Source of the DNA: Arthrobacter sp. AQ5-05
GTDB taxonomy: Bacteria; Actinomycetota; Actinomycetes; Actinomycetales; Micrococcaceae
Length of the DNA stretch: 64,000 nt
Assembly (NCBI RefSeq): GCF_003287975.1
Contig: NZ_QMKQ01000002.1
Location: 62,001-126,000, forward strand
Direction: 5' to 3'
Made by a program: the position numbers and the translations under genes. This document shows, piece by piece, positions 4,091-62,347 of this stretch; the stretch's first letter is position 1; each line of letters opens with the position of its first letter. The notes beneath the pieces were generated by a model. It was not told where the DNA came from. It searched no databases and saw nothing but the letters and a program-made list of their open reading frames with translations.

Positions 4091-4132
4091 GCTCCCGAAG
4101 TTTCACCCCAGGCCCCGCCTCGCGGGCAGCGC

Positions 4133-4171
4133 AAAGGCCGGGAAACCAAGTTGCTTGGTTTCCCGGCCTTT
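4133..4171. terminator. Bidirectional terminator hairpin
   Basis: A perfect 18-base-pair inverted repeat with a TTG loop, flanked by AAA and TTT, lies between the convergent GNAT gene (ends 4090) and the first oligopeptide ABC operon (ends 4187). It should stop transcription in both directions. Confidence 0.85.
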
Positions 4172-4186
4172 GTCGTGTGCAGAACC

Positions 4187-8489: not shown

Positions 8490-8545
8490 TGCGCGGTTCT
8501 TGCCTTTCCGTCTTGAGTGCCCTCGAAAGGGTTGCTAACAAGGGC

Positions 8546-8579
8546 GTGTGGGGTCCGGCTGGTATGCCGGACCCCACAC
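8546..8579 (-). terminator. Intercistronic hairpin between binding protein and permease
   Basis: A perfect 14-base-pair stem with a 6-base loop lies between the binding-protein gene (ends 8607) and the permease gene (starts 8489). It has no long U-run, so it is more likely a partial terminator or mRNA-stabilising structure that raises binding-protein level above the membrane components. The second operon has an equivalent at 14614-14640. Confidence 0.6.
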
Positions 8580-8606
8580 TAAGACGCTGGTATTGCCGGT
8601 GGGCAA

Positions 8607-10415: not shown

Positions 10416-10864
10416 TTCTCCTCCTAATTAGCTTGAGCTTCATGTAACCGAGCTTTCGCTCGAATGCGGTCCATGCAGTGTGCGATGCCCCACAATCTAG
10501 AACCATAGCCGCGATTGCTCCGCTTGGATATAAAAACACCGCTTCATATTTGGTGTGTCATTCGGGCCGCAACACGGTGGCCAAAGCCACCCCGGGGGCG
10601 CCCGCAAACGTGATGGGCGCTACAGCCGCGAAAACTCAAGGATCTGCTTCACATTGAACTTCGCCAATTACTACTCGCAAGTAGCCGCATGTGGTGTGGC
10701 TGGATTTATAACAGTTTGGAAACATCGCCCAACATGACGTTCGGCCCGGCACCGACTGCCCGCCACTAAACCATTGTGATAAGCCAGTGGAGGGGCAAGC
10801 CTTTTGGCTTACCCCTCCACTTTTTGCATATCAATTCCCAATTATCATTGGGATCCAACGTTCC
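10416..10864. other. Intergenic region between the two tandem oligopeptide operons
   Basis: No gene is seen in these 449 bases. The part next to 10415 is AT-rich for this genome (for example around 10527-10555) and should hold the promoter of the first operon. ACACC and GGTGT arms at about 10535-10557 form a loose inverted repeat. The distal end holds the terminator of the second operon (10787-10822). No Crp-like GTGA-N6-TCAC site was noticed here, unlike the second operon. Confidence 0.6.
10787..10822 (-). terminator. Terminator of the second oligopeptide operon
   Basis: A 16-position stem with one mismatch around a TTTT loop lies 43 bases beyond the stop of the ATPase gene at 10865. The T-rich tail is on the plus-strand side, so it may act weakly in both directions. 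Both flanking genes are on the minus strand. Confidence 0.65.
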
Positions 10865-47075: not shown

Positions 47076-48461
47076 CTACATTGCCGGCACCCCCTGCCCC
47101 AGCGCATCGAGGACCTTGCCGGGGTTCAGGATCCCGTCCGGGTCGAAGACCGCCTTGATTTGGCGCTGGAGCAGCAACTGCGTGTCACCGAGCTCGTCGC
47201 CCAGCCAGCGCTTCTTCAGCACGCCGATGCCGTGTTCCCCGGTGAGCGTCCCGCCCAGTTCCAGCGCATGGCCAAACAGCTCCCCGGCTGCCTCCCAGAC
47301 AGCGTCCGGGACCTCGGCCCCCTGGAACACAAAACACGGGTGGAGGTTTCCGTCTCCCGCGTGCGCGCTGGTGGGGATGACCAGCCCGTGCTTCTCCTCC
47401 AGCTCGGTGATCTTGGCAAACATCGCCACCATGGCATCCCGGGGCACCGAGACGTCTTCGACCAGTAGCGTCCCGGCTGCCTCCAGGGAGGGGAACACCT
47501 GCCGGCGGACCTCGACCCATGCCCGTGCGGTTGCCTCGTCGGTGGTGGACTCGGCTCGCGCCCCGGCGGCATGGATGATGTCCATGATCGCGGCGGCCTC
47601 GTCCCGCGCTGCAGGTCCGTCGCACTGGATCAACAGGTAGGCGTTGCCGCGACGGGTCAGGTCTTGCCCGATGTGATCGCCGAGGCAGAGCAGCGAGCGG
47701 CGGTCCAGCAGTTCCATCAGGGCCGGCTGCAGCCCGGCCGCGCCGATCCCGGCGGCCAGTCCCGCGCCCACTTCCACGCTATCGAGGTAGGCGGCGATGG
47801 TGGACACCTCCCCCTTCACCAGGTGGCGCAGCTTCAGCGTTGCCTCCACTATGATGCCCAAGGTCCCCTCCGAGCCGATCATCAGGGCACACAGGTCATA
47901 ACCGGTCACGCCCTTGACCGTGCGGTGGCCCACCGAGATCAGCCGGCCGTCGGCCAGGACGATTTTCAGGGCCAGCACGGCCTCGCGTGTCACACCGTAC
48001 TTGGCGCAGAGCAGTCCCCCGGCGTTCATGGCGATGTTGCCGCCGACGGTGGAGATGTCCTTGCTGGCCGGATCCGGCGCCCACCACATCCCGTGCTTGG
48101 CGAGCGCCCGGTTCAGCTCTCCGTTGAAGATCCCGGGCTGGACGACCGCCAGTTGGTTCGCTACCGAAACCTCCAGGATCTTGCCCATGGCCAGGGTGGA
48201 CAGGACGATTTCCCCGGCTCCGGCGATGGCGCCCCCGGCCAGGCCGGTTCCCGCGCCGCGCGAAACCACCGGGGTGCCGGTGCCGGTGGCGATCCTGCAG
48301 ACGGCCTGCACGTCTTCGATGGAGGTGGCCTCCACCAACACCAGGGGGCTGCCCGGTGCCACGTGCCCGGAGCGGTCGGTGCGGCAGGCCCGCAGCACCT
48401 CCGGGTCCGTGATGACGGTGCCCGCGGGCAGCGCGGTCCTTAGTTGTTCAATGACATCCAT
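47076..48461 (-). CDS. FAD-linked oxidase, GlcD type (2-hydroxy acid dehydrogenase)
   Basis: A 461-residue flavoprotein of the PCMH/VAO class. The N-terminal FAD-binding domain has V-S-R-G-A-G-T-G-L-A-G-G and G-G-N-I-A-M-N-A-G-G near residues 70 and 125. The C-terminal FAD-oxidase domain has S-A-H-A-G-D-G-N-L-H-P (metal-binding His) and G-T-L-T-G-E-H-G-I-G. Related enzymes oxidise glycolate, D-lactate or other 2-hydroxy acids. It overlaps the upstream FMN oxidase by 22 bases and is the last gene of the leftward operon. Glycolate oxidase partners GlcE and GlcF are absent, so it is not a full glycolate oxidase. Confidence 0.88.
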   Translation of the reverse strand: MDVIEQLRTALPAGTVITDPEVLRACRTDRSGHVAPGSPLVLVEATSIEDVQAVCRIATGTGTPVVSRGAGTGLAGGAIAGAGEIVLSTLAMGKILEVSVANQLAVVQPGIFNGELNRALAKHGMWWAPDPASKDISTVGGNIAMNAGGLLCAKYGVTREAVLALKIVLADGRLISVGHRTVKGVTGYDLCALMIGSEGTLGIIVEATLKLRHLVKGEVSTIAAYLDSVEVGAGLAAGIGAAGLQPALMELLDRRSLLCLGDHIGQDLTRRGNAYLLIQCDGPAARDEAAAIMDIIHAAGARAESTTDEATARAWVEVRRQVFPSLEAAGTLLVEDVSVPRDAMVAMFAKITELEEKHGLVIPTSAHAGDGNLHPCFVFQGAEVPDAVWEAAGELFGHALELGGTLTGEHGIGVLKKRWLGDELGDTQLLLQRQIKAVFDPDGILNPGKVLDALGQGVPAM

Positions 48462-49744
48462 TGGGGATCCTTCCCTTCCGGGGCGGGGTGCTGGCTCCGC
48501 ACGGCGGAAATGGCCGTGCGGGAGGGGTCCGGGCAGTGGAGGAGCTCGGGACCGCGGGCACGCAGTTCCTGCACCGAGCCAACTCCAAGAAGTTGCATGG
48601 TCCGGGTGAACTCCTCGGTGAGCATGCGCACCAGGTGGCCCACGCCTTCTTCTCCCCCGGCCACCAGTGCCCAGAGGTACGGCCTGCCCACGAAGCAGGC
48701 ATCGGCACCCAGGGCAATTGCCGTGGCGATGTCCGATCCGTGGCGGACCCCGGAGTCGACGAAGATCCCGAAGGAATCGCCGACCGCCGAGCGCACCGGT
48801 GACACCAGGTCCACCGGTGCCACCGTGCGGTCCAGCTGGCGTCCTCCGTGGTTGGACAGGTGCACCCCGTCAACCCCCAGTGCCCGGGCGCGCATCGCGT
48901 CCTCGGGACCCAGGGGGCCCTTCAGGACCAGTGGCCCGTCCCAGTCGTCGCGGATCCGGGCCAGGTCCTCCCAGCTGACCGTCGGGTCAAACTGGTCCGA
49001 GATTCCCTCGATGGTGTGCCCGCCTCCGGGTGCGTCCGAACGCACATTGGCGAAATCCAGTTTTTCCCCGCGCAGCATGCCCATCCAGTAGTTGGGCCGC
49101 GAGGCAATGTCCAGGAGGCTGCCCAGGGTCAGTGCCGGGGGTATCGTCAGTCCGTTGCGCACGTCCCGCAAGCGCTTGCCTGACACCGCGGTGTCGACCG
49201 CCACCTCCAGCACCCGGTAGCCGTTGGATCGGGCGCGGGAGACCAGCCCGCGGGTCAGCTCGCGGTCCTTCCAGACATAGAGCTGGAACCACCTGTCCGC
49301 GGCGTCTGCGCCGGGGACCGCGGCGAGGTCTTCCAGCGAGGTGCTGGCCATCGTGGAGAGCACGTAGGGAATGCGGTGCTCCGCCGCTGCGCGCGCCACC
49401 GCCGGTTCACCCTGCGGATGCATCATTCGGGTGTAGCCGGTGGGGGCAAATCCCAGCGGCATGGCGGCCGAACGGCCAAGAAAGCTGCCGGTGGTGTCCG
49501 GGCTTCCGACGTCCCGCAGGACCTGGGGCAGGTAGCCGTAGCGTTCGAAGGCACTGGAGTTCGCCTCGAGTGACAGCTCCTGGTCCGCACCGCCGTCAAC
49601 GTAGTCGAAAACCGCGGCGGGCAGCAGGCGGCGGGCGGCGGCCCGCAGATCCTGGACGGTGTGGCAGGCCCCGAGCCGTCGCTGCCGGAGCGTTCCCGTG
49701 GGCAGCCGGGGTGAGATGAGTTCGAGCGCATCGCCGATCTTCAT
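48440..49744 (-). CDS. FMN-dependent 2-hydroxy-acid oxidase/dehydrogenase (LldD/mandelate type)
   Basis: A 434-residue TIM-barrel flavoenzyme. It has F-D-Y-V-D-G-G-A-D near residue 46, Q-L-Y-V-W near 155, the FMN Lys 275 in V-L-K-G, and the catalytic H299 and R302 in L-S-N-H-G-G-R-Q-L-D. It oxidises (S)-2-hydroxy acids to 2-oxo acids; substrates of relatives include lactate, mandelate and aromatic 2-hydroxy acids. It is followed by a GlcD-type oxidase with a 22-base overlap. An ATGA overlap with a 20-codon leader ORF may couple its translation. An aromatic or imidazole hydroxy acid is suggested by the locus. Confidence 0.9.
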   Translation of the reverse strand: MKIGDALELISPRLPTGTLRQRRLGACHTVQDLRAAARRLLPAAVFDYVDGGADQELSLEANSSAFERYGYLPQVLRDVGSPDTTGSFLGRSAAMPLGFAPTGYTRMMHPQGEPAVARAAAEHRIPYVLSTMASTSLEDLAAVPGADAADRWFQLYVWKDRELTRGLVSRARSNGYRVLEVAVDTAVSGKRLRDVRNGLTIPPALTLGSLLDIASRPNYWMGMLRGEKLDFANVRSDAPGGGHTIEGISDQFDPTVSWEDLARIRDDWDGPLVLKGPLGPEDAMRARALGVDGVHLSNHGGRQLDRTVAPVDLVSPVRSAVGDSFGIFVDSGVRHGSDIATAIALGADACFVGRPYLWALVAGGEEGVGHLVRMLTEEFTRTMQLLGVGSVQELRARGPELLHCPDPSRTAISAVRSQHPAPEGKDPQWMSLNN

Positions 49745-49803
49745 GCCGGTCGATTTCCCGGCCGGCCGGTGCTGCCCGGGGCGCCGGTCACTGGTTCATT
49801 CAT
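49741..49803 (-). CDS. Short leader ORF before the FMN oxidase (20 residues)
   Basis: An ATG at 49803, preceded by AGGGA, opens a 20-codon frame whose TGA overlaps the oxidase ATG (ATGA, 49741-49744). The oxidase start itself has no good ribosome binding site, so coupling from this ORF could set its expression. The peptide is Pro/Gly-rich with no known match. Could be chance. Confidence 0.3.
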   Translation of the reverse strand: MNEPVTGAPGSTGRPGNRPA

Positions 49804-49863
49804 GCTGTTCCCTGCCTGGTTCCGCTGGGTTGGATGGATGGATGAAATGCATGGTGCCGGCTT

Positions 49864-50598
49864 CTAGTCCCGGTATCCCAGGACCTCGCTGGCCCGACGG
49901 GCGGCACGCACCACGCCGTCGATCACTTGTTGGTCCTGCAAGCTTGAACCGCGCAGGTAGCTGACCCCAATGGAGCCGGGGGGCCCGGAGGGATACCGCA
50001 CGGGCGCCGCAACGCAGCGTACGCCCTGGGCGGTCTCGCCGTCGTCGCTGCTGAATCCCAGGGCCCGGATGCCGCCCAGTTCCCCTATCAGCCGGTCCAC
50101 CGTTTGGCGTTGCGAAACAGCAGCGCGGATGGCATCCAGGTGCCGTTCGAGATCGGCCTCCGGTAACCAGGCCAGGGCGGCCTTGCCCACCGCCGTGGTG
50201 TAGGCCGGCAGCCTGGCCCCCACGGAACTGGCCAATTTCAGGCCCAGCCCCGGAGGGTCCTCCTTGCACAGGTACACGGCGTCGGACCCGTCGAGGATGG
50301 CGTAGTGGGAGGTTATTCCCAGGTCGCGTGTGAGTCCGACAAGCTGCGGGATCACCACCTCCACCGCATTGGTTGAGCGCAGGTGCGAGGCACCGACCTC
50401 GAAGGCCTTGAGCCCCACCGCATAGTTCTGGTATTCGTCGAGGCCCAGGAACCCGCGGCCGACGAGGGCCTTGAGGATGGAGTGGGTGGTGCTTTTCGGG
50501 ATCGAGAGCTCTTCGGCAATGGAGGTCAGTGTCATGGGCTTGGCCGCCCCGGAGAGCAACTCCAGGATCCTCATTGCCCGGACAACCGAGGTACTCAT
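49864..50598 (-). CDS. IclR-family transcriptional regulator
   Basis: A 244-residue regulator. The N-terminal winged helix (about 1-65) has M-T-L-T-S-I-A-E-E-L-S-I-P-K-S-T-T-H-S-I-L-K-A-L. The IclR effector domain has V-Y-L-C-K-E-D-P and G-F-S-S-D-D-G-E-T-A-Q-G near residues 150-180, then the conserved C-V-A-A-P-V. IclR proteins usually sense a catabolic substrate and control adjacent operons, often divergently. It sits between the ABC importer genes and the oxidases in the leftward operon, with AAAGG 6 bases before the ATG. Its targets are probably the paired palindromes at 53325-53338 and 53488-53501. Confidence 0.9.
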   Translation of the reverse strand: MSTSVVRAMRILELLSGAAKPMTLTSIAEELSIPKSTTHSILKALVGRGFLGLDEYQNYAVGLKAFEVGASHLRSTNAVEVVIPQLVGLTRDLGITSHYAILDGSDAVYLCKEDPPGLGLKLASSVGARLPAYTTAVGKAALAWLPEADLERHLDAIRAAVSQRQTVDRLIGELGGIRALGFSSDDGETAQGVRCVAAPVRYPSGPPGSIGVSYLRGSSLQDQQVIDGVVRAARRASEVLGYRD

Positions 50599-50619
50599 GG
50601 ATTGCCTTTCATTTTCCGA

Positions 50620-51387
50620 CTACAGGACCGCGCCAAGGAACGCCTTGGTGCGTTCTTCACGGGGGCTGCCGAGCAATTGCGTTGGCGAGCCCGATTCAAG
50701 AACGCGGCCCTCGTCCATGAAGACTATGCCGTCTGCAACCTCCCGGGCAAAGCCCATCTCATGGGTCACCACGACCATGGTCATTCCCGACCTGGCCAGA
50801 TCCCTCATGACATCGAGCACCTCGCCGACGAGTTCCGGGTCCAGCGCGGATGTCGGTTCGTCAAAGAGCATCAGCTTTGGCTCCATGGCCAGGGCACGGG
50901 CAATGGCCACGCGTTGTTGCTGGCCACCGGACATCGCCCGGGGATACGCATGGGCGCGATGGGCCAGCCCGACCCGCTCGAGCAGGGACAGGCCTTGTGC
51001 GATGGCCTTCTTCTTGTTCGTGCCCTTGACCTGGATCGGTCCTTCGATGACGTTTTCCAGGGCGGTCTTGTGGGCGAACAGGTTGAAATGCTGGAAGACC
51101 ATGCCGATATTGGCCCGTTCCGAACACACGGCCCGGTCGGGCAGCTCGTAGAGTTTCTCGCCCACCTCGCGATACCCCACCAGTGATCCGTTGACGATCA
51201 GGCGACCGCCATCGATCTTTTCCAGGTGGTTGATGCAACGCAGGAAGGTGGACTTGCCCGACCCGGAGGGGCCGATGATGCACAGCACCTGGCCGCGGGA
51301 GACCTCCAGGTCGATGCCCTTGAGGACCTGCAGGTCCCCGAAGGACTTGGTGACCTGCTCGGCGCGGACAATGACATCGGTGTTCAT
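50620..51387 (-). CDS. Polar amino acid ABC transporter ATPase (GlnQ type)
   Basis: A 255-residue ATPase with Walker A G-P-S-G-S-G-K-S near residue 36, signature S-G-G-Q-Q-Q-R near 148 and Walker B L-M-L-F-D-E-P. It matches the amino acid branch (M-V-F-Q-H-F-N-L-F, and V-V-T-H-E-M-G-F-A). It overlaps the permease by ATGA. With the binding protein it forms a His/Glu-type importer. Confidence 0.93.
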
Positions 51388-52349
51388 GAGGCCCTCCTAA
51401 GGGATAGGTTGCGGCGCAGCCGGTCCAGGAACCCGGTCCTGGCCCCCGGCACGCCCCGGCTCAGCCGATCTTCGAGCAATTGCTGGAAGAGACTGAACAC
51501 CGTGGTCAGCGCTATGTACCAGAGCGCTGCGGTGAACAGCAGCTCTATCACCTTGAAGTTCGCGGTGTAGATCTTGTTCGCCGAGTGCAGCAGTTCGCTG
51601 TAGGAAATGGTGTAGGCCAGCGACGTGAATTTCAGGCAGGCAATGAACTCATTGCCCAGCGGGGGGACGATGACCCGCATCGCCTGCGGGAGCACGATCC
51701 GGCGCATGGTCTTGGCCCGTGACATCCCGATGGCCGAGGCCGCTTCCCGTTGCCCGTGGTCCACCGAGAGGATGCCGCCGCGCACGATCTCGGAAATGTA
51801 GGCCCCCTCGTTGATTCCCAGTCCCAGCAGGGCTGCGACGAACGGGGTCATCAAGGTGTTCATCGGGATGGAGAACAGGCCCGGGATGGAGAAGTTCTCG
51901 AAGATGATGGACAGGTTGAACCAAATCAACAGCTGGACCAGCAGCGGGGTTCCGCGGAACAACCAGACATAACCGCCGCCGACCCAGCGCAGCACCGGGT
52001 TCGGGGACTGGCACATGACGGCAGTCAGGACACCCAGCACCAGCCCCACCCCCATGGAGGCCAGCAGCAGCACCAAGGTGTTGCGGACCCCCGCCAGGAT
52101 CCCGGCGCTGGTCAGGTACTTGAGGACCACCGCGTAGTCGATGTCGGCGGCCAGGAAGGCCTTCCCGACGAAGCCCAGCACCGCCAGCACCAACGCCGCC
52201 GTGATCCATCGCCAAGGATGGCGCAGCGGGATGACCGTGTATGTCTTGGCCGGGGCGGGTGCGGCCACCGGGGGCGGATCAGTTTGGGTTTGGTTCTCAA
52301 GCACGCTGTGCTCCGTTTCCTTCACGTGGGCCGGCAGGCGGGGTGTCAT
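51384..52349 (-). CDS. Polar amino acid ABC transporter permease
   Basis: A permease of up to 321 residues with an N-terminal region rich in Gln and Pro, then five membrane helices and the HisM/GlnP-type EAA loop ([10 protein letters not shown]). A GTG at 52304 has GGAG 6 bases upstream and gives 306 residues; it is a serious alternative to ATG 52349, which has no good site. A single permease gene is present, so the transporter is probably a homodimer. Confidence 0.9.
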
Positions 52350-52355
52350 CGGTGG

Positions 52356-53285
52356 CTACGGTTCAATGCCTGCGCCCACCGGGTTGACCACCGATTCCTT
52401 GATGCCGATCGCGCCCAGCTCCCATTTCTCCAGGATGGCATCGTAGGATCCGTCATCGATGATCGCCTGCCAGGCCTTTTGCAGGGCGTCGCGCAGCTGT
52501 GTCTGGTCCTTGCTGACGACCATCGAGAAGAAGCGCTTCTCCACCTGCAGCCCGTCAATGACTTCGAGGGACCCCTCGGAGTTCGTGGCGAAGAACGCAG
52601 CGGTTGGATAGTTTTCCAGCATGGCCGCCGCGCGCCCCTGCTTTACGGCCAGCTGTTCCTGCGCATTGCCGTCGAAGGTCAGCACATCGATGGCCGCCAT
52701 GCCCTCCTTCACGCAGACCTTGGAGCGCTCCTCCAGGTATTGCGGCTGTACGCCGCCGCGCACCGCGGCGATGGCCTTGCCACAGAGGTCCTCGACCTTG
52801 GTGATGCCCGTGTCCGTTCCCGCCTTGGCGACAAAGCCCTGGGACGACTGCAGGTAGGAGACCATGTCGAAGCTCTCCTCGCGCTCCTTGGTGTCATTCA
52901 CGGCCCCGAAGATCACGTCGTAGCGCTTGGTGGTCAGGGCCGGCAGCAGGGTGTCAAAGCCGGCGTTGTTCCACGTGAACGGAACCCCGAGATGCTTTTC
53001 CAGTTCCTTGGACAGCTCCACCTCGAATCCGGCCAGATCGCCGTTTTCCTCGTAGAACTCAAATGGCGGGTAGTCGATGGCCGATCCGATCTGGATGGTC
53101 CCGGCCTTCTGGATCGAATCGGGAAGTTGCGAGAACAGCGGTGCGGAGCTGCTTGTGCCCTCCGCCGCGGCCGGGGCGGCCGGGGTCTCGGTCTGGGCGC
53201 ATCCCGCGAGCAGGAGCCCGGCAACGAGGGGCAGCGCGCAAAGTGCAGACATCCTGTACTTGGGTGACTTCGGGGTGGTGTGCAT
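52356..53285 (-). CDS. Amino acid ABC transporter substrate-binding lipoprotein (SBP family 3)
   Basis: A 309-residue lipoprotein. The signal peptide ends in L-L-A-G-C (Cys 29). The mature protein has the family 3 pattern D-Y-P-P-F-E-F-Y near residue 75, then D-L-A-G-F-E-V-E-L and the hinge. It delivers an amino acid or analogue to the permease; the ligand is unknown. GGAGG lies 7 bases before the ATG. First gene of the leftward operon, divergent from the aminotransferase gene. Confidence 0.92.
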   Translation of the reverse strand: MHTTPKSPKYRMSALCALPLVAGLLLAGCAQTETPAAPAAAEGTSSSAPLFSQLPDSIQKAGTIQIGSAIDYPPFEFYEENGDLAGFEVELSKELEKHLGVPFTWNNAGFDTLLPALTTKRYDVIFGAVNDTKEREESFDMVSYLQSSQGFVAKAGTDTGITKVEDLCGKAIAAVRGGVQPQYLEERSKVCVKEGMAAIDVLTFDGNAQEQLAVKQGRAAAMLENYPTAAFFATNSEGSLEVIDGLQVEKRFFSMVVSKDQTQLRDALQKAWQAIIDDGSYDAILEKWELGAIGIKESVVNPVGAGIEP

Positions 53286-53324
53286 GGGTGGTCCTCCGGG
53301 GTGCGAGCGAAAAAAACCAACTTG

Positions 53325-53338
53325 TTCAGATATGTGAA
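53325..53338. promoter_or_regulatory. Candidate operator palindrome 1 (IclR-type)
   Basis: TTCAGATATGTGAA, within the dyad GTTCA-N6-TGAAC (53324-53339), lies 40 bases upstream of the binding-protein start. It matches 11 of 14 positions of operator 2. Confidence 0.45.
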
Positions 53339-53367
53339 CCGTGTGCTACATGTCGAACAACACTAAG

Positions 53368-53383
53368 TGTGATTCAACTCACT
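53368..53383. promoter_or_regulatory. Crp/GlxR-like site in the divergent catabolic promoter
   Basis: TGTGA-TTCAAC-TCACT matches 9 of 10 consensus positions. It lies between the two palindromes, about 83 bases from the importer start and about 200 bases from the aminotransferase start. Confidence 0.55.
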
Positions 53384-53487
53384 GTCAACACCCTTTCCCA
53401 TGCTGAATTCCCCCATCTCAAAGCCTCGAGGCGGGCCATTGACACCCTCCCCCGCAGCGCCTAGTTTGTTCACATCTAGGTATCCGA

Positions 53488-53501
53488 TTCGTATATGCGA
53501 A
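53488..53501. promoter_or_regulatory. Candidate operator palindrome 2 (IclR-type)
   Basis: TTCGTATATGCGAA, within the dyad GATTCG-N6-CGAATC (53486-53503), lies 84 bases upstream of the aminotransferase start. It shares 11 of 14 positions with operator 1. Confidence 0.5.
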
Positions 53502-53585
53502 TCCATGGGGAGCGAGGTCACCGCACATCCCCGTACCCCGCACCCCGTCACACGATGCATTCCCCCCGGCCAAAGGAGCCCGAGC

Positions 53586-54662
53586 ATGACCATTGCCGCC
53601 CGTCCATGGTTGGACGAGATCCAGGCCTATCGGCCCGGAACCAGATCCGCTTCCGCGGACGGTTCCATGGCCTCCAACGAGTCACCGCTTGGCGCCAGCC
53701 CAAAGCTGGGTGATTCCATTGCCAAGGCACTGGCCGGGGTGCACCGCTACCCCGATCCGCTGGCCGATGAGCTGCGCAGCCAACTGGCCGGACTGCACGG
53801 CGTGCACCCCGAACAGATCCTCATCGGCAATGGTTCCGACGAGCTGATATTCCTGCTCTCCACCACGTTCCTCGCCCAAGGCGGCCACGCCGTTTGCGCC
53901 GACCCCGCCTACCAGATCGACAGGATCGGCGCGCTATCGGTCAACGCCACCATCACCCAGGTCCCCCTACGCGATTGGAAGCACGATCTGGCCGCAATGG
54001 CCGCTCTCCGGGCGGACATTGCCTATATCGTGAACCCGCACAATCCGACCGGCACCACCAGGTCCCGGGCAGAGATCGATACCTTCACCGCCGAAAGCCC
54101 GGCCCACCTGGTCGTGGTCGACGAGGCCTACATCGACTTCACGACGGATCCCGAGGCGCTCACGGCCATCCCCCTGGTGGCCGGCGGCCGTGTCGCGGTC
54201 CTGCGCACCTTCTCCAAGATCCACGGACTGGCCGGCCTGCGGGTCGGCTACCTCGTGGCCGATTCGGCGATCATCGCCGCGATACGCAAGGTCCGGGCCC
54301 CCTTCTCCGTTGGCTCCTTGGCCCAGGCCGCCGCATTGGCAGCCCTGGCCGACACCGGGCACCGGGAAGCCGTGCGCGAGCACACGCTGCGCCTGCGCGG
54401 GCAGCTGGTCGACCTGTTGGCCTGCCATGGGCTGCACGCGGTGGAATCGGAGGCGAACTTCGTTCTCCTGCCGGTCCCAGACGAAAACGCCTTCGTCGCG
54501 GGCCTGCGCACCCACGGTGTCTCGGTTCGCCCCGGGTCCGCTCTCGGGGCACCGGGTACCGTGCGCATCTCCGTGCCCACCGAGGCCGGGCTCGAGCTCT
54601 TGCGCTCGGCCCTGCACCACACCCATCCCGCAAACCACCGCGAAACCGCCAACCACCGATAA
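53586..54662 (+). CDS. Histidinol-phosphate/aromatic aminotransferase-like enzyme
   Basis: A 358-residue fold-type I PLP aminotransferase. It has the N-terminal N-E-S-P-L-G, the PLP Lys 211 in R-T-F-S-K, N153 in N-P-H-N-P-T-G, D179 in V-V-D-E-A-Y-I-D-F, and R219 in L-R-V-G-Y. HisC-like enzymes also act on histidine and aromatic amino acids. AAGGAG lies 7 bases before the ATG. It is not in a his operon: it leads a catabolic operon, so it probably converts an imported amino acid to its 2-oxo acid. Confidence 0.88.
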   Translation: MTIAARPWLDEIQAYRPGTRSASADGSMASNESPLGASPKLGDSIAKALAGVHRYPDPLADELRSQLAGLHGVHPEQILIGNGSDELIFLLSTTFLAQGGHAVCADPAYQIDRIGALSVNATITQVPLRDWKHDLAAMAALRADIAYIVNPHNPTGTTRSRAEIDTFTAESPAHLVVVDEAYIDFTTDPEALTAIPLVAGGRVAVLRTFSKIHGLAGLRVGYLVADSAIIAAIRKVRAPFSVGSLAQAAALAALADTGHREAVREHTLRLRGQLVDLLACHGLHAVESEANFVLLPVPDENAFVAGLRTHGVSVRPGSALGAPGTVRISVPTEAGLELLRSALHHTHPANHRETANHR

Positions 54663-54675
54663 AGGAGATCCACCC

Positions 54676-55713
54676 ATGTTCGTACGCAACGCCTGGTATG
54701 TCATCGCCCAGTCAGAGGAAATCGACAGGGTTCCGCTCAAGCGCACCGTGCTCGGCGAGGACGTGGTCCTGTTCCGCAAGACCGACGGGACGGTCGCTGC
54801 CTTGGACGACCGCTGCGCCCACCGCGCCTATCCGCTGTCCGAGGGCCGGATCGTCGGGGACAACATCCAATGCGGTTACCACGGCTTCGAGTACAACTGC
54901 GCCGGGGTCTGCGTCAGGGTCCCCGCCCAGGCCCGCATCCCCGAACGCGCCGTGGTGAGGTCATACCCCGTCGTCGAGTCCCACCGGTGGGTGTGGATCT
55001 GGATGGGAGATGCGGCCCTCGCGAAAACCGCTGAGGTGCCCGACACGCACTGGATGACCGATCCCGCCTGGGACCGCGTGACCCACCAGCGGCTCTTTGA
55101 ATGCAGTGCCGACCTGATCCACGACAACCTCTTGGACCTGACCCACGAGGGCTTCCTGCATGAATCGACCATCGGCGACGAGGCCGTGTACGAAAACGGG
55201 ATCACCGTGGAGGTCGACGGGAACACCGTCTCGGTGGACCGCTGGATGCCTGCATGCCACCCTTCGGCGCTGTTCGAGAAGGCCACCGGACTCAGCCTCG
55301 CGGATCGCTGGCACACCACGGTCTTCCAGCTTCCCTCCCTGCATGTCATCCACGCCGGGGTGGTGGAGGTCGGTGGAAGACGCGAGGATGGCCACCTGCT
55401 GCGGGTGCTCAATGCGATCACCCCGGCCACCGAGAACACCGCATGGTACTTCTACGCCTTCTGCCGCGACTTCTCCGTGGGTGACACGGCCCTGAACGAG
55501 CTGCTGGCCGAGAGCCTGGGCGGGGTACTGACCGAGGACTCCGACGCCCTGGCGCTCCAGCAGGTCAAGATGGAGTCTCGCCCCGCGAACATGCCCGATG
55601 TGCTGATTGCCCAGGACGCCGGCGTGGCCAAGGCCCGAAGGATGATGAAGCAGCTGCTGGCCGCCGAGTTCCGGGCCCAGTCCCCGGCGCCCGAGAAAGT
55701 CGCTGCCCCGTGA
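54676..55713 (+). CDS. Rieske non-haem iron oxygenase, VanA-like alpha subunit
   Basis: A 345-residue oxygenase component. Rieske ligands are C47, H49, C66 and H69 (C-A-H-R and C-G-Y-H). The mononuclear iron site is in D-L-T-H-E-G-F-L-H (H157 and H162, with an acidic residue before them). VanA-type enzymes demethylate or hydroxylate aromatic acids. A stand-alone VanB-type reductase is missing from the locus, so electrons must come from elsewhere. AAAGGAG lies 9 bases upstream. It follows the aminotransferase by 13 bases and overlaps the HutD-like gene by GTGA. Confidence 0.9.
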   Translation: MFVRNAWYVIAQSEEIDRVPLKRTVLGEDVVLFRKTDGTVAALDDRCAHRAYPLSEGRIVGDNIQCGYHGFEYNCAGVCVRVPAQARIPERAVVRSYPVVESHRWVWIWMGDAALAKTAEVPDTHWMTDPAWDRVTHQRLFECSADLIHDNLLDLTHEGFLHESTIGDEAVYENGITVEVDGNTVSVDRWMPACHPSALFEKATGLSLADRWHTTVFQLPSLHVIHAGVVEVGGRREDGHLLRVLNAITPATENTAWYFYAFCRDFSVGDTALNELLAESLGGVLTEDSDALALQQVKMESRPANMPDVLIAQDAGVAKARRMMKQLLAAEFRAQSPAPEKVAAP

Positions 55714-56201
55714 GGTTGCTGTTGCGCGCCAATGCGCACCGCCGCGAGCCCGGCGGGGGCATGGAAATCGCGGCTTCCCCGGACACCCGCGAGCGTGAAC
55801 GCTGGCAATGGGACGTGCACCTGGCCGCGGACCCGGTCGGGGAGGCGCCGCTGCCGGCCTCGGTGGAGTCCCTGGTGGCCACCGGGGCCATGGCGCTGGC
55901 CGACGGATCGCTTGTGCACGTGGTGGCCCGCTCGGCGCCGGCCGAGGCCGTGCCCTCGGTGGAAATCCACCACCTGGCCGACGCCATGGAGCTGTGCCGC
56001 GGCCTGCACGAGGTCATGCTCGTGGTGGCAGGCGGGCCGGGGCTACTGGTCGAGGGGCGCCACCGGCTGGAGCGGCTTGATGCCCTGGTCCTGGAGGGGG
56101 ACGACCCGTTGACGCTCCCGCTCGAAGCCGATGGTGCCGGACCAATACCGATCGCCGTCATACGGCTCAAGGGCACGGGGCAACTCGGCTGGGTGCCCTA
56201 G
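55710..56201 (+). CDS. HutD-like small protein
   Basis: A 163-residue protein. The N-terminus R-L-L-L-R-A-N-A-H-R-R-E-P-G-G-G-M-E-I-A resembles the HutD start (R-x-P-W-K-N-G-G-G-V-T-R-E-I-A), though its W-K-N is lost. The W-Q-W-D-V-H-L-A at 32-39 and the late L-D-A-L-V-L-E-G-D-D-P-L-T-L match the HutD cupin fold. HutD limits histidine catabolism in Pseudomonas by an unclear mechanism. It is shorter than HutD (about 190). Its presence in a Rieske operon is unusual. Starts at GTG 55710 with GTGA overlap. Identity inferred by pattern; moderate. Confidence 0.6.
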   Translation: MRLLLRANAHRREPGGGMEIAASPDTRERERWQWDVHLAADPVGEAPLPASVESLVATGAMALADGSLVHVVARSAPAEAVPSVEIHHLADAMELCRGLHEVMLVVAGGPGLLVEGRHRLERLDALVLEGDDPLTLPLEADGAGPIPIAVIRLKGTGQLGWVP

Positions 56202-56299
56202 CGACAGGAGGACGGGAACCGCGCGAAGGAATAACACCGGTCATTTCACCGCTGCCCCTGAGGGATGCGCCGCCGCAGCGGCGGCGCGGGGAAGGACAG

Positions 56300-57316
56300 A
56301 TGAAAAAAATCGGTTTCTTGACCTTTGGCCATTCGGGCGGCTCCAGCAATTCGCCGGTGCCCACCGGCGCCGACGCCGTGCGCCAGATGGTGGACCTGGC
56401 CGTCGCGGCCGAGGAGTCCGGGTTCGACGGAGCCTGGATGCGGGTGCACCACTTTGGCAACTCGCTCTCCACGCCGTTCCCCCTGTTGGCGGCCATGGCG
56501 GCGAAAACCACGACGCTCGAGGTCGGCACCGGGGTGATCGACATGAGATATGAAAATCCCCTCTACATGGCCGAGCAGGCGGGCGCCGTGGATGCGATCA
56601 GCAGCGGCCGGCTGCAGCTGGGCGTCAGCCGCGGGTCGCCCGAGCCGGCCCGCGACGGGCAGCACCAGTTCGGCTACCACCTGGAGCCGGGCAACAGCTG
56701 GGCCAACGAGACCCGCGAACGCACCGCCCTGTTCCGCAAGGCGATCTCAGGGGCGGGCATCGCCCATCCGGAACCCGGCGGGCACCACCACGACCATGAC
56801 GAGCTGCTGCCGATCAACCCGATCTCCCCGGGCCTGGAAAACAGGATCTGGTGGGGAGCGGCGACCATCGGCTCGGGGCTGTGGACCGGCGAAGTCGGCA
56901 TGAACCTGCTCTCCTCCACGCTGCTGCTGGAGGACGACGGGCGGCCCTTCCACGTGCTGCAGGCCGACCAGCTTCGCCGGTACAAGGCTGCATATGCCGC
57001 CAGCGGGCACACCACCGGGGGGATGACCGCGGTGACCCGCAGCGCGTTCCCGGTCACCACCGACAAGGACGAGATCTACTTCGGGCGCCGCGAACGCGGG
57101 GACTCGGTGGGGATCCTGGACGGCTCGGTGGCCCGCTCGGGACCCACCTATTCGGGTTCCCCCGAGGAAGTCGCACAGCAGTTCATGGCGGACGAGGCGA
57201 TCGGCGAGGCCGACTACGTCCTCTTCGCGCTGCCGAACCAGCTCGGTGTGGACTACAACGCGCACGTGATGACGGAGATCGCGAACATCGCCCGTGAAAT
57301 CGGCTGGAAGAACTAG
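56300..57316 (+). CDS. LLM class flavin-dependent monooxygenase/oxidoreductase
   Basis: A 338-residue luciferase-like TIM-barrel protein. It starts K-K-I-G-F-L-T-F-G-H and has E-V-G-T-G-V-I-D-M-R near residue 75 and an A-I-S-S-G-R-L-Q-L-G-V-S-R-G strand. The bacterial luciferase-like fold uses FMNH2 or F420; which is not visible. AAGGA precedes the ATG. It is 98 bases after the HutD-like gene, probably the last gene of the rightward operon. It may oxidise a downstream intermediate. Confidence 0.82.
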   Translation: MKKIGFLTFGHSGGSSNSPVPTGADAVRQMVDLAVAAEESGFDGAWMRVHHFGNSLSTPFPLLAAMAAKTTTLEVGTGVIDMRYENPLYMAEQAGAVDAISSGRLQLGVSRGSPEPARDGQHQFGYHLEPGNSWANETRERTALFRKAISGAGIAHPEPGGHHHDHDELLPINPISPGLENRIWWGAATIGSGLWTGEVGMNLLSSTLLLEDDGRPFHVLQADQLRRYKAAYAASGHTTGGMTAVTRSAFPVTTDKDEIYFGRRERGDSVGILDGSVARSGPTYSGSPEEVAQQFMADEAIGEADYVLFALPNQLGVDYNAHVMTEIANIAREIGWKN

Positions 57317-57839: not shown

Positions 57840-58332
57840 GATGATCGATCCGGCGACCAGGGCTTCCGGTGTCGGTTGCGCGGGGAGAACCGCCGGACGC
57901 CGTTGACGCGTTCACGAATCCACCTTCCCCAACTTGTATCGGTGCAACACTCCAAGCACCACCGACATCTTGTGTCAATACGTTGACACCAGAATGCGAG
58001 GGGCCCATTGGCGCCCCTTGGCCAAGAAAGGGCATGGCACCGGGAGCGAGGCCCGGGCCGAGCAAGGCAGGCGGATCCGGTCACCTACTCCCAATCCACG
58101 CCTCCGCCAGGAGGCCAGGCAGTCCCCGCGCCAGCACCCGGCACCAAAACCGAACGGGCGCTTCCCCCTGCCGGGAGCACCCACCCTCCGCCGTTCCTGC
58201 CGCTGGGCGCGAACGCGGCCCGACCCCAACCACTCGCACCCCGGGACCAATTCGATGATATGGATCACAAATCGACGTCGAATCATGAAGCCGTTGAGAA
58301 ACGTTGATTTTCAGAAATGCTTTACCATCGCA

Positions 58333-58348
58333 TGTGAACCGTGACACA
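58333..58348. promoter_or_regulatory. Crp/GlxR-like site upstream of the GH101 gene
   Basis: TGTGA-ACCGTG-ACACA matches 9 of 10 consensus positions of TGTGA-N6-TCACA. It is about 97-112 bases upstream of the start at 58445. Confidence 0.5.
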
Positions 58349-58356
58349 CTATGGTT

Positions 58357-58368
58357 GTTATCCATAAC
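58357..58368. promoter_or_regulatory. 12-base palindrome upstream of the GH101 gene
   Basis: GTTATCCATAAC is a perfect inverted repeat 8 bases after the Crp-like site. It could be the operator of a local sugar-responsive repressor (perhaps LacI or GntR type). This rests on position alone. Confidence 0.4.
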
Positions 58369-58444
58369 ATGCTGTGCGGTTTGGCAACACGTTGGGTGGG
58401 GACGTCGTGTGGGCTGGGGCCGTTCGCAACTGATGAGGAGCAAG

Positions 58445-61400
58445 ATGCGAAGTTCACCAGGCAAGATTCGTAGAGCCGTCGGTCTAAGTGCCGTCGGCGC
58501 CATCGCGGCCGCCGCGCTGGTCCCGCTGGGGATCACCGGGGCCGCGGCAGTACCCGAGGCCACCGACGCGTCGGCAAGCACCATTTCCTCGCAAGCACTC
58601 CAGGTCACGGTCTCCCGCGACTTCCCGCAGGTGCTCAAGTACACCGAGGCCTCCACCTCCGCGACCCTCGACGGAGCCACCAAGCCCATCGATGCGATCA
58701 CGATCAACGGCGAGACCCGCAAGGTCGAGGTGACTTCGAAGCCAGCCGGCGAATCGGCCATGGACTACCGGATCACCGTTCCGGAAATCCCGGGCGCCGT
58801 GATCAAGGCCCGAATCAGCGTCGAGGACTCCGTGATGACGTTCCGCGTCACGGAGATCACCGACGGCGACTCCACCAAGATCCGCACGCTGGGCATCCCC
58901 GGAAACAACCTGGTCAGCGTGTCCTCGACCAACCCCGGCGCCCAGGTCTCCACGGCCAACCTCTCGGTGGACCGCGCCAAGAGCGGTGACACCTTCACCC
59001 GGGTCTCCGACTCCACGCCCCTGGACACCAAGCCCCAGGAATCGGCCTTCGCCCTGGCAAACACCGATAAACTCGCCGCGGCGCTGGAATCCAATTCCCT
59101 GTACGACACCTCCTCCGGTTCCGGATACCGGTCCCAGGGCCGCTTCCAGCGCCAGGCCGTGAAGGACGGCGAGCACGTGCGCGTGGGCATCTCCAGCGGC
59201 GACTGGCTCTACCGCGCCAAGGAATCCAACGAGATCGAGGAGCTGCCCTGGTCCAAGGTGAAGATCACCGCCGACGCCAACGCCGATGGGACGGTCGACT
59301 GGCAGGACGCCGCCATCGCGCTGCGCGACATCGCGGTGCTCCCGCACAAGGGCGAAGACGTCAAGGACAAGGTCGTCCAGCGCATCCCGTTCAACTTCGC
59401 CTCCCAGGCAACGCACCCGTTCCTGCGCACACTGGATGACACCAAGCGCATCGCGCTGGCCACCGACGGTCTCGGCCAGTCGGCCATCCTCAAGGGGTTC
59501 GGCAACGAGGGGCACGACTCGGCAAACACCGACTTCGCCGACAACTACAACACCCGCGCCGGCGGACTTGGGGACCTGAACCAGCTCCTGGAGGCCAGCA
59601 AGAAATGGAACGCCTCCTACGGCGTCCACATCAACCAGACCGAGGCCTACCCGGAATCCAAGTTCTTCTCCGACGACCTGGTCGACCCGAAGGCCAAGGG
59701 CTGGAGCTGGCTGGACCAGTCGTACTACATCAACCAGCGCAAGGACATCCTCACCGGCAACCTGGCCGAGCGCGTGAAGAAATTCCGCGAACAGACCAGC
59801 GAGAACCTGGACATGGTCTACGTCGATGTCTACTACCAATATGGCTGGCTGGCCGAGCGCCTGCAGAAGGAACTGGTCAAGAACGGCTTCCGGGTCAGCT
59901 CCGAGTGGGCCCACTCGCTGGACCGGAACAACACGTGGTCCCACTGGGCCACTGACGAGAAGTACGGCGGATCCAACAACAAGGGCGTCAACTCGGACAT
60001 CATCCGATTTGCGCTCAACTCGCAGAAGGACACCTGGAACCCGCACCCGTTGCTGGGCAACGCCAACATCGTCGAGTGGGAAGGCTGGACAGGGCAGAAC
60101 GACTACAACGCCTTCTACCAGAACATCTGGAAGAAGAACCTGCCGGCGAAGTTCCTGCAGCAGCAGGAAATCGTCAATTGGGAGAAGGAACGGATCGACC
60201 TCACCGGCGGCGTCTCCGTCACCGGGACCTCGGCCGGGGACCGGGTCATCACCGATTCGGGCGCCGAGGTGCTGCGCGGGGACAGCTACCTGTTGCCCTG
60301 GGCAGCGGACGGCACCTTCGACGCCAGCGGCGACGAACCCACCAAGCTGTACCACTACAGCGCCAAGGGAGGCACCAGCACCTGGACGCTGCCGGAGCGC
60401 TTTCGCCAAAACGGCGGGTACAAGCTCTACAAGCTCACCGACACCGGCCGCGAACTGGTCGACCAGCCCAAGGCCAGCAAGGGCAAGATCACGCTGAGGG
60501 CCGAGGCCGGGCAGCCCTACGTGCTCGCGCACGACGCCCGTCCCGCGCTGCCGCAGCAGGCGGACTTCGGCCAGGGAACCGGCGTCACCGACCCCGGCTT
60601 CAATTCCGGCACCCTGGAATCCTGGAACCCGGCCGGCTCGGCCACCGTCGAACGCAACGACAAGGGCCACAGCTACGCGGTCCTGGGCGAAGGAACCTCC
60701 GCGATCTCGCAGAAGCTGGGCAAACTGGAACCGGGAACCTACTCGGTCGGCGCCTGGGTCGAGGTGGAAAAGGGCAAGTCCCGGGAAACGACGCTGTCCG
60801 TGCAGGGCCAGGGCACCGCATCCGTGTCCAACACCATCCACAGCTCACGGGCCACCAACTACGTCGCCGCCGACGAGAAGCACGGCACCAACTTCCAGCG
60901 CTTGCGCGTACTGGTCGAGGTGAAGGAATCGGGCTCCCCGGAGCTGCGGATCTCCGTCAGCGACGGAACGGCCAAGGTCCGCATCGACGACGTGCGCGTC
61001 GTGGCCACCGCAAAGGTCCCCACCTCCGGCGTCATCTCGGAGGACTTCGAGGACATCGACCAGGGGTGGGGCCCCTTCGTGAAGGGCAATGCCGGCGGGT
61101 CCACGGATCCCCGCACCCACCTCGCCGAACTCAACGCGCCGTATACGCAGTCCGGCTGGAACTCCAAGGCAACCGACGACGTCATCGACGGCAAGTGGTC
61201 GCTGAAATCCCATGCGGAGAACAAGGGCCCGGGCGGCGGCCCGGGGCTGGTCTACCGGACCAGCAACTACACCGTCCCGATGACACCGGGCCACGAGTAC
61301 CGGGTCGGCTTCGACTACCAGAACGCCTTGGCGGGCGAATACAACTGGGTTGGCGGCTACGCCTCGGCCAATGGCACCGTCAAGACCCAAACCAAGGCGC

Positions 61401-62347
61401 TGCCGCGCCAGCTGGAAACCGCCCGCTTCACCGACACCGTCGTGGCCGGCGGATGCGGCGACACCTGGGTGGGACTCGAACGCGTTGGCAGTTCGGAACT
61501 GGCCGACTTCTCGCTGGACAACCTGCTGGTCGAGGACCTCGGTGCAGCGGCAAGCATTCCCGCCTGCGGGCAGGTTGACGTCGCGCTGGAGGGCGACGTG
61601 ATCAAGCAGGACCAGGAGAACACCTTCACCACCACGTTCACCAGCGACGAGCCCGCCGACATCAAGGACCTCGAGGTAGCCCTCGAGCTACCCGAAGGCT
61701 GGAGGGCCACGGCCAAGACCGCGAACACAGCCGCCACGCTGGCCCCGGGTGCGAAGCTGGAAACCACGTGGGCCGTGGTGCCCCCGGCATCCGCGGACGG
61801 AGATTACACGGTGGGCACCACCGCGTCCTACTTCACCACCGCGGACCCGGTGGGTACGCGCACGGTCTCCGACGACGTGGCCGTCTACACGCTGCCGGCA
61901 CCTCCCGCGGGCACCGTCTACGCCAGCGACCACCAGTGGGTCAGCGCCGACAACGGCTGGGGCCCGGTGGAGAAGGACAAGGCCAACGGCGAAAACGGCG
62001 AGGGCGACGGGCCTGCCATCACCCTGAACGGCGTCGTCTACCCCAAGGGCCTGGGTGCGCACGCACCCAGCACCGTGCGCTACTTCACGGGCGGCAAGTG
62101 CTCCTCCTTCACGGCGCAGGTCGGCATCGACGACGTCCAGAAGACCCTGGGCTCGGTCGGCTTCACCGTGCTGGCCGACGGCAAGTCCGTCGCTGCTTCC
62201 CCGGTGATGCGGGCAACCAGTGCTACCCACGCGCTGAGTGCCGACATCACCGGCGCCGAGTACGTCGACCTGGTGGCAGACGTTGCCGGGGACGGCAACG
62301 GCAACGACCACGCGGACTGGGCCGACGCCAAGTTCACCTGCAAGTAG
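58445..62347 (+). CDS. Secreted GH101 endo-alpha-N-acetylgalactosaminidase-like hydrolase
   Basis: A 1300-residue exported enzyme. The signal peptide (1-35) ends near A-A-A-V-P. An N-terminal beta domain precedes the GH101 barrel (about 270-600), which contains a Ca-binding-like D-A-N-A-D-G-T-V-D-W-Q-D loop, catalytic Asp 461 in M-V-Y-V-D-V-Y and Glu 487 in S-S-E-W-A-H. Further beta domains follow, then a NEW3-like domain (about 1050-1150) and a C-terminal NPCBM carbohydrate-binding domain (about 1158-1300). The family removes Gal-GalNAc from mucin-type O-glycans. GAGGAG precedes the ATG at 58445. No anchor motif is seen, so the enzyme is probably released. Confidence 0.88.
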   Translation: MRSSPGKIRRAVGLSAVGAIAAAALVPLGITGAAAVPEATDASASTISSQALQVTVSRDFPQVLKYTEASTSATLDGATKPIDAITINGETRKVEVTSKPAGESAMDYRITVPEIPGAVIKARISVEDSVMTFRVTEITDGDSTKIRTLGIPGNNLVSVSSTNPGAQVSTANLSVDRAKSGDTFTRVSDSTPLDTKPQESAFALANTDKLAAALESNSLYDTSSGSGYRSQGRFQRQAVKDGEHVRVGISSGDWLYRAKESNEIEELPWSKVKITADANADGTVDWQDAAIALRDIAVLPHKGEDVKDKVVQRIPFNFASQATHPFLRTLDDTKRIALATDGLGQSAILKGFGNEGHDSANTDFADNYNTRAGGLGDLNQLLEASKKWNASYGVHINQTEAYPESKFFSDDLVDPKAKGWSWLDQSYYINQRKDILTGNLAERVKKFREQTSENLDMVYVDVYYQYGWLAERLQKELVKNGFRVSSEWAHSLDRNNTWSHWATDEKYGGSNNKGVNSDIIRFALNSQKDTWNPHPLLGNANIVEWEGWTGQNDYNAFYQNIWKKNLPAKFLQQQEIVNWEKERIDLTGGVSVTGTSAGDRVITDSGAEVLRGDSYLLPWAADGTFDASGDEPTKLYHYSAKGGTSTWTLPERFRQNGGYKLYKLTDTGRELVDQPKASKGKITLRAEAGQPYVLAHDARPALPQQADFGQGTGVTDPGFNSGTLESWNPAGSATVERNDKGHSYAVLGEGTSAISQKLGKLEPGTYSVGAWVEVEKGKSRETTLSVQGQGTASVSNTIHSSRATNYVAADEKHGTNFQRLRVLVEVKESGSPELRISVSDGTAKVRIDDVRVVATAKVPTSGVISEDFEDIDQGWGPFVKGNAGGSTDPRTHLAELNAPYTQSGWNSKATDDVIDGKWSLKSHAENKGPGGGPGLVYRTSNYTVPMTPGHEYRVGFDYQNALAGEYNWVGGYASANGTVKTQTKALPRQLETARFTDTVVAGGCGDTWVGLERVGSSELADFSLDNLLVEDLGAAASIPACGQVDVALEGDVIKQDQENTFTTTFTSDEPADIKDLEVALELPEGWRATAKTANTAATLAPGAKLETTWAVVPPASADGDYTVGTTASYFTTADPVGTRTVSDDVAVYTLPAPPAGTVYASDHQWVSADNGWGPVEKDKANGENGEGDGPAITLNGVVYPKGLGAHAPSTVRYFTGGKCSSFTAQVGIDDVQKTLGSVGFTVLADGKSVAASPVMRATSATHALSADITGAEYVDLVADVAGDGNGNDHADWADAKFTCK

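Follow-up and report, generated by a model that had tools for sequence, protein, structure and literature searches.

A conserved nine-gene Rieske oxygenase locus of actinobacteria with a proposed role in 2-hydroxy-acid catabolism

We describe a catabolic locus, here termed locus A, in a 64,000-nucleotide (nt) stretch of the Arthrobacter sp. AQ5-05 genome (contig NZ_QMKQ01000002.1, forward-strand positions 62,001 to 126,000). The whole stretch is called the window in what follows, and coordinates count from its first letter. Two operons diverge at 47076..57316 and encode an ATP-binding cassette (ABC) importer, an IclR-family regulator, two oxidases, an aminotransferase, a Rieske oxygenase and a small partner protein. 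A first-pass annotation of the window had proposed ten genes acting together as one co-regulated catabolic unit. Nine of them are conserved together in other actinobacteria and share a palindrome in their upstream regions; they form a real unit, very probably under one regulator.

Gene content and conservation of locus A

The coordinates of all ten open reading frames and of the two diverging operons were confirmed, and Pfam domains fit the names first given to nine of the ten. The features are as follows.

47076..48461, minus strand: flavin adenine dinucleotide (FAD)-linked oxidase of the GlcD/D-lactate-dehydrogenase type, proposed D-2-hydroxy-acid dehydrogenase (Pfam FAD-oxidase_C, 7.2e-54; FAD_binding_4)
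48440..49744, minus strand: flavin mononucleotide (FMN)-dependent enzyme, putative L-2-hydroxy-acid oxidase/dehydrogenase (Pfam FMN_dh, 1.6e-125)
49864..50598, minus strand: IclR-family regulator (Pfam IclR_C, HTH_IclR)
50620..51387, minus strand: ABC importer ATPase, polar amino acid type (Pfam ABC_tran)
51384..52349, minus strand: ABC importer permease (Pfam BPD_transp_1; HEQRo_perm_3TM, 66 versus a cutoff of 42.2 bits)
52356..53285, minus strand: solute-binding protein, family 3 (Pfam SBP_bac_3; Asn130, Asn225, Arg135)
53324..53339, no strand: operator copy 1, palindrome GTTCAGATATGTGAAC, proposed IclR site of the leftward operon
53487..53502, no strand: operator copy 2, palindrome ATTCGTATATGCGAAT, proposed IclR site of the rightward operon
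53586..54662, plus strand: HisC-like class I/II aminotransferase (Pfam Aminotran_1_2, 3.8e-51)
54676..55713, plus strand: Rieske non-haem iron oxygenase of the VanA/DdmC branch, proposed demethylase (Pfam Rieske, VanA_C)
55710..56201, plus strand: small Rieske-partner protein of 163 amino acids, a remote HutD/Ves-like cupin at best, encoded after the Rieske gene in both A and B
56300..57316, plus strand: luciferase-like (LLM-class) oxidoreductase, probably outside the conserved unit (Pfam Bac_luciferase)

A 300-bp region (53286-53585) separates the two operons. Genes are tightly packed, with overlaps of 22 nt between the GlcD-type and FMN enzyme genes and 4 nt both between ATPase and permease and between the Rieske gene (start codon ATG at 54676) and its partner; gaps of 119 nt separate the IclR gene from the FMN enzyme gene and 98 nt the partner from the LLM gene.

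Relatives of the Rieske protein were collected by scanning 84,980 species, each represented by one genome, with peptide patterns, and the best 80 of 158 were kept; since the patterns came from one protein, the scan returns close relatives and could miss less common or more divergent copies of the locus. Among these 80, seven loci fall at 73-87% identity, three at 54-56% and the remainder at 45% or less. The locus A set used below has nine members, with our own numbers for genomes (G) and loci (L): the window (G000), L098 (G200), L001 (G219:C41), L002, L003 and L004 of the Micrococcaceae (probably G056, G098 and G115 of our family sample), Segeticoccus L005, Flexivirga L006 and Planosporangium L007.

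All nine genes, LLM gene excluded, occur together in eight of the nine genomes found with the locus, across four actinobacterial families; the Segeticoccus locus shows six genes in order up to the contig end. The IclR gene is present in 9/9 loci and the GlcD-type gene in all eight that could be checked for it. No match to the LLM gene was found in the seven other loci having sequence past the partner gene, and since it does not recur the conserved unit is nine genes, not ten; the gene set first proposed thus holds for all but its last member. This linkage is not chance. Gene order varies, the Micrococcaceae having the divergent layout and Flexivirga and Planosporangium a single operon of importer, IclR, aminotransferase, Rieske, partner, VanB-type reductase, GlcD-type and FMN enzyme genes.

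Locus A is rare and patchily held. With the aminotransferase as marker, six of 395 sampled family genomes are carriers, and at E<=1e-80 only the home genome was found in samples of the order (1/396) and class (1/394). G200 also has an aminotransferase-like frame, 42% identical and with one internal TGA, at G200:C1:1910569-1911564. A plasmid origin was considered and set aside: a Rieske search of PLSDB returned 156 records, all below 60% identity (best listed, 41%), with neither locus A nor the related locus B (below) at such sensitivity.

Palindromes of the divergent region

The two palindromes of the divergent region fit a consensus, RTTCRNATATRYGAAY, that was compiled from the locus A upstream regions themselves and occurs in 9/9 of them, with no mismatch in eight and one mismatch in Flexivirga L006. 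When each upstream region was dinucleotide-shuffled 200 times, no shuffle matched it as well. In the home genome (4.65 Mb) the exact palindrome is found at just two places, both inside this divergent region, and allowing one mismatch adds a single place, within a called coding frame. For L007 the called start of the binding protein lies upstream of the palindrome, and we assume a later true start.

By eye, a TTGACA box precedes each palindrome, at 53439-53444 for the rightward operon and 53388-53383 (minus strand) for the leftward one; the spacing from either box to a TAGTTT/TAGTGT hexamer is 17 nt, and the palindromes follow immediately downstream. A stricter promoter scan of the divergent region did not list these TTGACA/TAGTTT-type boxes. 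The local IclR protein may repress both operons from the two predicted sites, and the operons are probably one IclR regulon. The first-pass notion of a single co-regulated unit is borne out to this extent, by nine-gene conservation and a shared palindrome.

Enzymes, importer and related loci

The Rieske protein scores above the Pfam gathering cutoffs for both Rieske (83.3 versus 20.3 bits) and VanA_C (139.8 versus 23.5 bits). Its closest solved relative is the dicamba O-demethylase DdmC (E 8.6e-49, 169.5 bits, query residues 2-325), and in their alignment the cluster and iron-ligand motifs (CxH...CxxH; D...H...H), which we take to be those of the VanA/DdmC type, line up. Ring-dihydroxylating oxygenases appear in the solved-structure list as weak matches. 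By similarity the enzyme groups more closely with the VanA/DdmC demethylase branch than with the ring-dihydroxylating enzymes, which refines the ring oxygenation first suggested. It differs from the DdmC/VanA group in that the similarity is moderate, the window locus has no local reductase and locus A has a dedicated small partner gene; among characterised VanA and DdmC loci we know of none that has such an importer, oxidase and aminotransferase set. A precedent for removing N-methyl groups from a ring is offered by the methylxanthine N-demethylases NdmA and NdmB, both Rieske enzymes, the former described in PMC12445004 as acting on caffeine. Both are distant in sequence (E 3e-18, NdmA; 2e-15, NdmB) and act on purines. 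With DdmC as nearest solved relative, the VanA_C domain and the NdmA precedent, demethylation is likelier than ring attack, hydroxylation being the alternative.

A second Rieske gene of the home genome, its product 55% identical to that of locus A, marks locus B (L088, G000:C2:186500-206400, genes at 3939-11080). It comprises genes for a GntR-like regulator (by eye), the Rieske protein, the partner, a DoeB-like deacylase (AstE_AspA domain; 216 bits against the DoeB cutoff of 403), a binding protein, a permease, an ATPase and a VanB-type reductase. Locus B was found in 25/395 genomes of the family, including all six carriers of locus A (Fisher 3.5e-8, uncorrected for relatedness). We read 20 of these 25 loci, each with the Rieske-partner stretch (L088, L123-L126, L158-L172): in 20/20 the partner gene comes after that of the Rieske protein, and a reductase is present in 20/20 and the deacylase in 16/20. 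HyuA/CapA-like genes lie near four of the 20 (L088, L158-L160).

A tree was built from 40 Rieske proteins, among them those of 20 of the 70 loci L011-L080 and the home genome's third paralogue (L083). In it, A (nine rows) and B (seven rows) each form one clade; together with L008-L010 from other Actinomycetota they form a single clade with 100/100 support on a long branch. The B core contains an importer with a canonical amine site and neither aminotransferase nor oxidase. As B thus runs a sister Rieske enzyme without them, behind an amino-acid-type importer, the oxidases and aminotransferase of A plausibly make the amino-acid substrate of its Rieske enzyme. Class III aminotransferase genes lie near B in 4/20 loci, in three of them with a gene of the methylmalonate-semialdehyde-dehydrogenase type; such a pair is of the sort that handles beta-alanine. 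From these neighbours one might speculate that anserine-type dipeptides are B-linked substrates.

A third set, locus C, was found in the home genome and G200 (L119:6462-15281, L120:3168-11964). It encodes an IclR-like regulator, an aromatic ammonia-lyase, an importer, a HisC-like aminotransferase and a VanB-type reductase, with a CYP199-like cytochrome P450 (by match in the home genome, by eye in G200) divergent. The lyase is 40% identical to HutH and in alignment has Asn where the Pseudomonas putida lyase has His; the aminotransferase is 36% identical to that of A. Over the 20 kb read on and around locus C, gene calling gave no Rieske gene.

Rieske oxygenases require a reductase, a need overlooked in the first-pass annotation. 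Among the nine A loci, a VanB-type reductase gene (Fer2 and NAD-binding domains) lies within the operon in Flexivirga and Planosporangium only. A match of the window locus to vanillate or mandelate catabolism was also checked; its ten genes include neither a VanB-type reductase nor a mandelate-pathway decarboxylase. In the six A carriers of the family sample, the closest relatives of the Planosporangium reductase (50-56% identity) lie in loci B and C, with a further copy standing alone in G200, and the reductase of B (or of C) is probably the electron donor for A in the Micrococcaceae. Two VanB-type reductases of G200, L120:10999-11964 in locus C and L127:6643-7608 alone, have identical first 60 residues.

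The partner protein had been called HutD-like. Against Pfam PF05962 (HutD) it scores 13 bits (E 0.11) where the gathering cutoff is 25 bits; six of 16 partner homologues give weak HutD matches, all below the cutoff (best E 0.00017, 22.2 bits), and profile comparison (hhalign) with two HutD sequences gave no match. HutD membership was rejected on these grounds. Pro24-Asp25, Arg29, Trp32, Trp34, Arg97, Asp124, Glu129-Gly130 and a C-terminal Trp-Val-Pro are invariant in all 16 members, which come from A, B and L009/L010. That its gene keeps a constant place after that of the Rieske enzyme points to an accessory protein for this Rieske type.

Among the NCBIfam matches listed, no equivalog model is passed by an enzyme of the locus, which means that the names do not reveal exact activities. 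The GlcD-type enzyme reaches 356.2 of the 567.9 bits required by TIGR00387 (glycolate oxidase GlcD), the FMN enzyme 255.2 of 550 for NF033901 (L-lactate dehydrogenase LldD) and the aminotransferase 264.1 of 276.55 for TIGR01141 (hisC); the three best matches of the importer ATPase (GlnQ, TcyN, EhuA) are likewise under their own cutoffs. Enzymes of the FMN_dh and GlcD types act on 2-hydroxy acids, and aminotransferase reactions are reversible. The closest solved structures to the FMN enzyme are L-lactate oxidase, 4-hydroxymandelate oxidase and mandelate dehydrogenase, and to the aminotransferase 3ffh (HisC) followed by 4r2n (a putative phenylalanine aminotransferase). These families lend support to the first-pass idea that the oxidases and the aminotransferase would converge on a 2-oxo acid. 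Locus A differs from mandelate or lactate oxidation by FMN enzymes, to which the nearest solved relatives of its own FMN enzyme belong, in coupling that enzyme with an aminotransferase, importer and Rieske oxygenase.

The importer had been suggested to take up an amino acid, its hydroxy acid or both. In the available text of PMC4192606 and PMC5740067, the binding proteins LAO and HisJ hold the alpha-amine of the ligand through Ser72 and Asp161 and its carboxylate through Arg77. Eight locus A binding proteins were examined (L004 left out), and in all eight both amine-locking positions are Asn (residues 130 and 225 of the window protein) and the carboxylate Arg (residue 135) is kept; of the three residues that mark LAO/HisJ-type amino-acid binding, locus A thus retains Arg alone. 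The nine examined from loci B (seven) and C (two) have Ser/Thr and Asp at the amine-locking positions. Among the core gene sets of A, B and C, 2-hydroxy-acid oxidases occur in A only. Since the amine-locking residues are lost and A alone has such oxidases, its cargo is probably a 2-hydroxy acid, the likelier of the options first considered. The opine-binding proteins OccJ and NocT, also of family 3, have likewise lost the amine-locking Asp (Asn202 and Ser207, respectively, in the same two sources as available); they differ from locus A at the Ser72 position, where OccJ has Ser, NocT Gly and locus A Asn, and in their catabolic genes.

Beyond the conserved unit, the window encodes a large GH101 endo-alpha-N-acetylgalactosaminidase with NPCBM domains at 58304-62347.

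Substrate and proposed pathway

We tentatively propose, at somewhat short of an even chance, that locus A converts a hydroxy acid with an aromatic side chain to an oxo acid, then to an amino acid and then through a Rieske step, as IclR-controlled scavenging. The substrate would be a 2-hydroxy acid whose aromatic side chain is probably of imidazole type and ring-methylated. The importer would take in the hydroxy acid; the FMN enzyme would oxidise its L form and the GlcD-type enzyme its D form to one shared 2-oxo acid, which the HisC-like aminotransferase would convert to an L-amino acid. The Rieske oxygenase, with its partner and a reductase, would then strip the methyl group as formaldehyde, the reductase coming from the same operon in Flexivirga and Planosporangium and probably from locus B (or C) in the Micrococcaceae. 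The product, possibly histidine, would enter ordinary catabolism (hut).

The imidazole part of this proposal, which the first-pass annotation had drawn partly from the HutD-like name, now leans on neighbouring genes. In Planosporangium L007, locus A is followed by an IclR gene (other strand), histidine ammonia-lyase, urocanase, an enzyme of the allantoate-amidohydrolase type and the start of HutF. In G007 (L170:10638-19901) the B regulator gene lies 39 bp from imidazolonepropionase (HutI), past which come HutF, a relative of the Planosporangium amidohydrolase, urocanase (HutU) and the start of histidine ammonia-lyase (HutH). Genes of histidine breakdown thus adjoin A in one genome and, separately, B in another. 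Measured by hand, hutH lies 26 kb from locus A in G200 and 47 kb in the home genome, and from locus B 9 kb in G007 and 24-36 kb in five genomes of one genus. No hut enzyme is inside locus A itself; the home genome has a separate hut operon (L122), in which two genes score as true HutD (147.3 and 110 bits). In Flexivirga, an S-(hydroxymethyl)mycothiol dehydrogenase gene (L006:15479-16594; 629.5 versus a cutoff of 512.9) lies about 315 bp downstream of the last locus A gene, and such a formaldehyde-removing enzyme is expected if the Rieske enzyme releases formaldehyde.

Several observations weigh against the proposal. Contact of hut genes with A or B is seen in two genomes only, and the distance between hutH and B is about 154 kb for G376, rises to 0.7-1 Mb for G062, G163 and G283 and reaches about 2 Mb for G200 and G168, the remaining B carriers having the two on separate contigs. 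HutH is present in 25/25 B carriers yet exceeds its cutoff in 303/380 genomes of the family as well, and for that reason hutH presence was dropped as weak evidence. The co-occurrence of A with B comes from two genera, the partner is not a HutD by either comparison above, and the formaldehyde enzyme was seen beside one of nine A loci, the others not having been profile-searched for it. OccJ, with its Asn at the Asp161 position, is described in the available text of PMC4192606/PMC5740067 as not depending critically on that residue, so the residue argument is suggestive. Finally, in G056 a GlcD-type gene, its product 44% identical to that of locus A, is convergent to the GntR gene of B (L124:10488-11870); the restriction of oxidases to A is therefore not perfectly clean, and we rate the proposal, and its extension to ring-methylated histidine below, slightly lower because of it.

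If the cargo carries another ring, phenyl-, methoxyphenyl-, hydroxyphenyl- or indole-lactate would be imported, oxidised, transaminated and then O-demethylated or hydroxylated, the hut neighbours being coincidental. We regard this as unlikely but a serious contender: the nearest solved Rieske enzyme is an O-demethylase of dicamba, the runner-up among solved aminotransferases is the putative phenylalanine enzyme, 4-hydroxymandelate oxidase is among the close solved relatives of the FMN enzyme, and genes for tryptophan dioxygenase and kynureninase, of the kynurenine pathway, lie upstream of A in Flexivirga (L006:2797-4900), a further point against an imidazole ring. Opposed to it are the hut genes adjoining A in L007 and B in L170; in addition, inspection by eye of the open reading frame starts around A, made without a profile search, revealed no ring-cleavage gene.

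An ordinary or methylated amino acid as cargo fits an importer of the polar amino acid class; the aminotransferase, its reaction being reversible, would first remove the nitrogen, the oxidases would serve side products and the Rieske enzyme would oxygenate the ring of the 2-oxo acid, a sequence near to that of the first-pass annotation. Both amine-locking residues are lost in the eight binding proteins examined, and B runs a sister Rieske enzyme with no such aminotransferase or oxidase in its core, which makes this order of events improbable. Import of an opine-like, N-substituted amino acid (histopine-like, for example), split or oxidised by the flavoenzymes before the Rieske step, is very improbable: OccJ and NocT do lack the same Asp, but OccJ keeps Ser at the position where A has Asn, the FMN_dh and GlcD types are 2-hydroxy-acid enzymes, and no opine oxidase was recognised by eye, none having been searched for.

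The proposal of a methylated imidazole hydroxy acid can be extended to both loci. In a version that we consider speculative and quite unlikely, A and B would be a salvage system for ring-methylated histidine compounds, their Rieske enzymes being histidine-ring N-demethylases with a new small partner. Locus B would import N-methylhistidine or an acylated or beta-alanyl form of the anserine/balenine type, from which the DoeB-like deacylase would free N-methylhistidine for demethylation to histidine; locus A would handle the D- and L-lactate forms likewise, after oxidation and re-amination.

In the open-access literature searched (5.39 million papers), outside which most subscription papers fall, we found no description of the locus or of such a breakdown route, in agreement with the first-pass statement that no described pathway has this gene set. 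If the proposed pathway is true, it would explain how some soil actinobacteria reuse hydroxy acids of methylated imidazole (or other aryl) type, and would bring to light a Rieske demethylase acting on a histidine-like ring, along with its accessory protein. The binding-protein positions would then offer a residue test for distinguishing hydroxy-acid from amino-acid importers of the family-3 class, and so specific a palindrome would suit use in biosensors.

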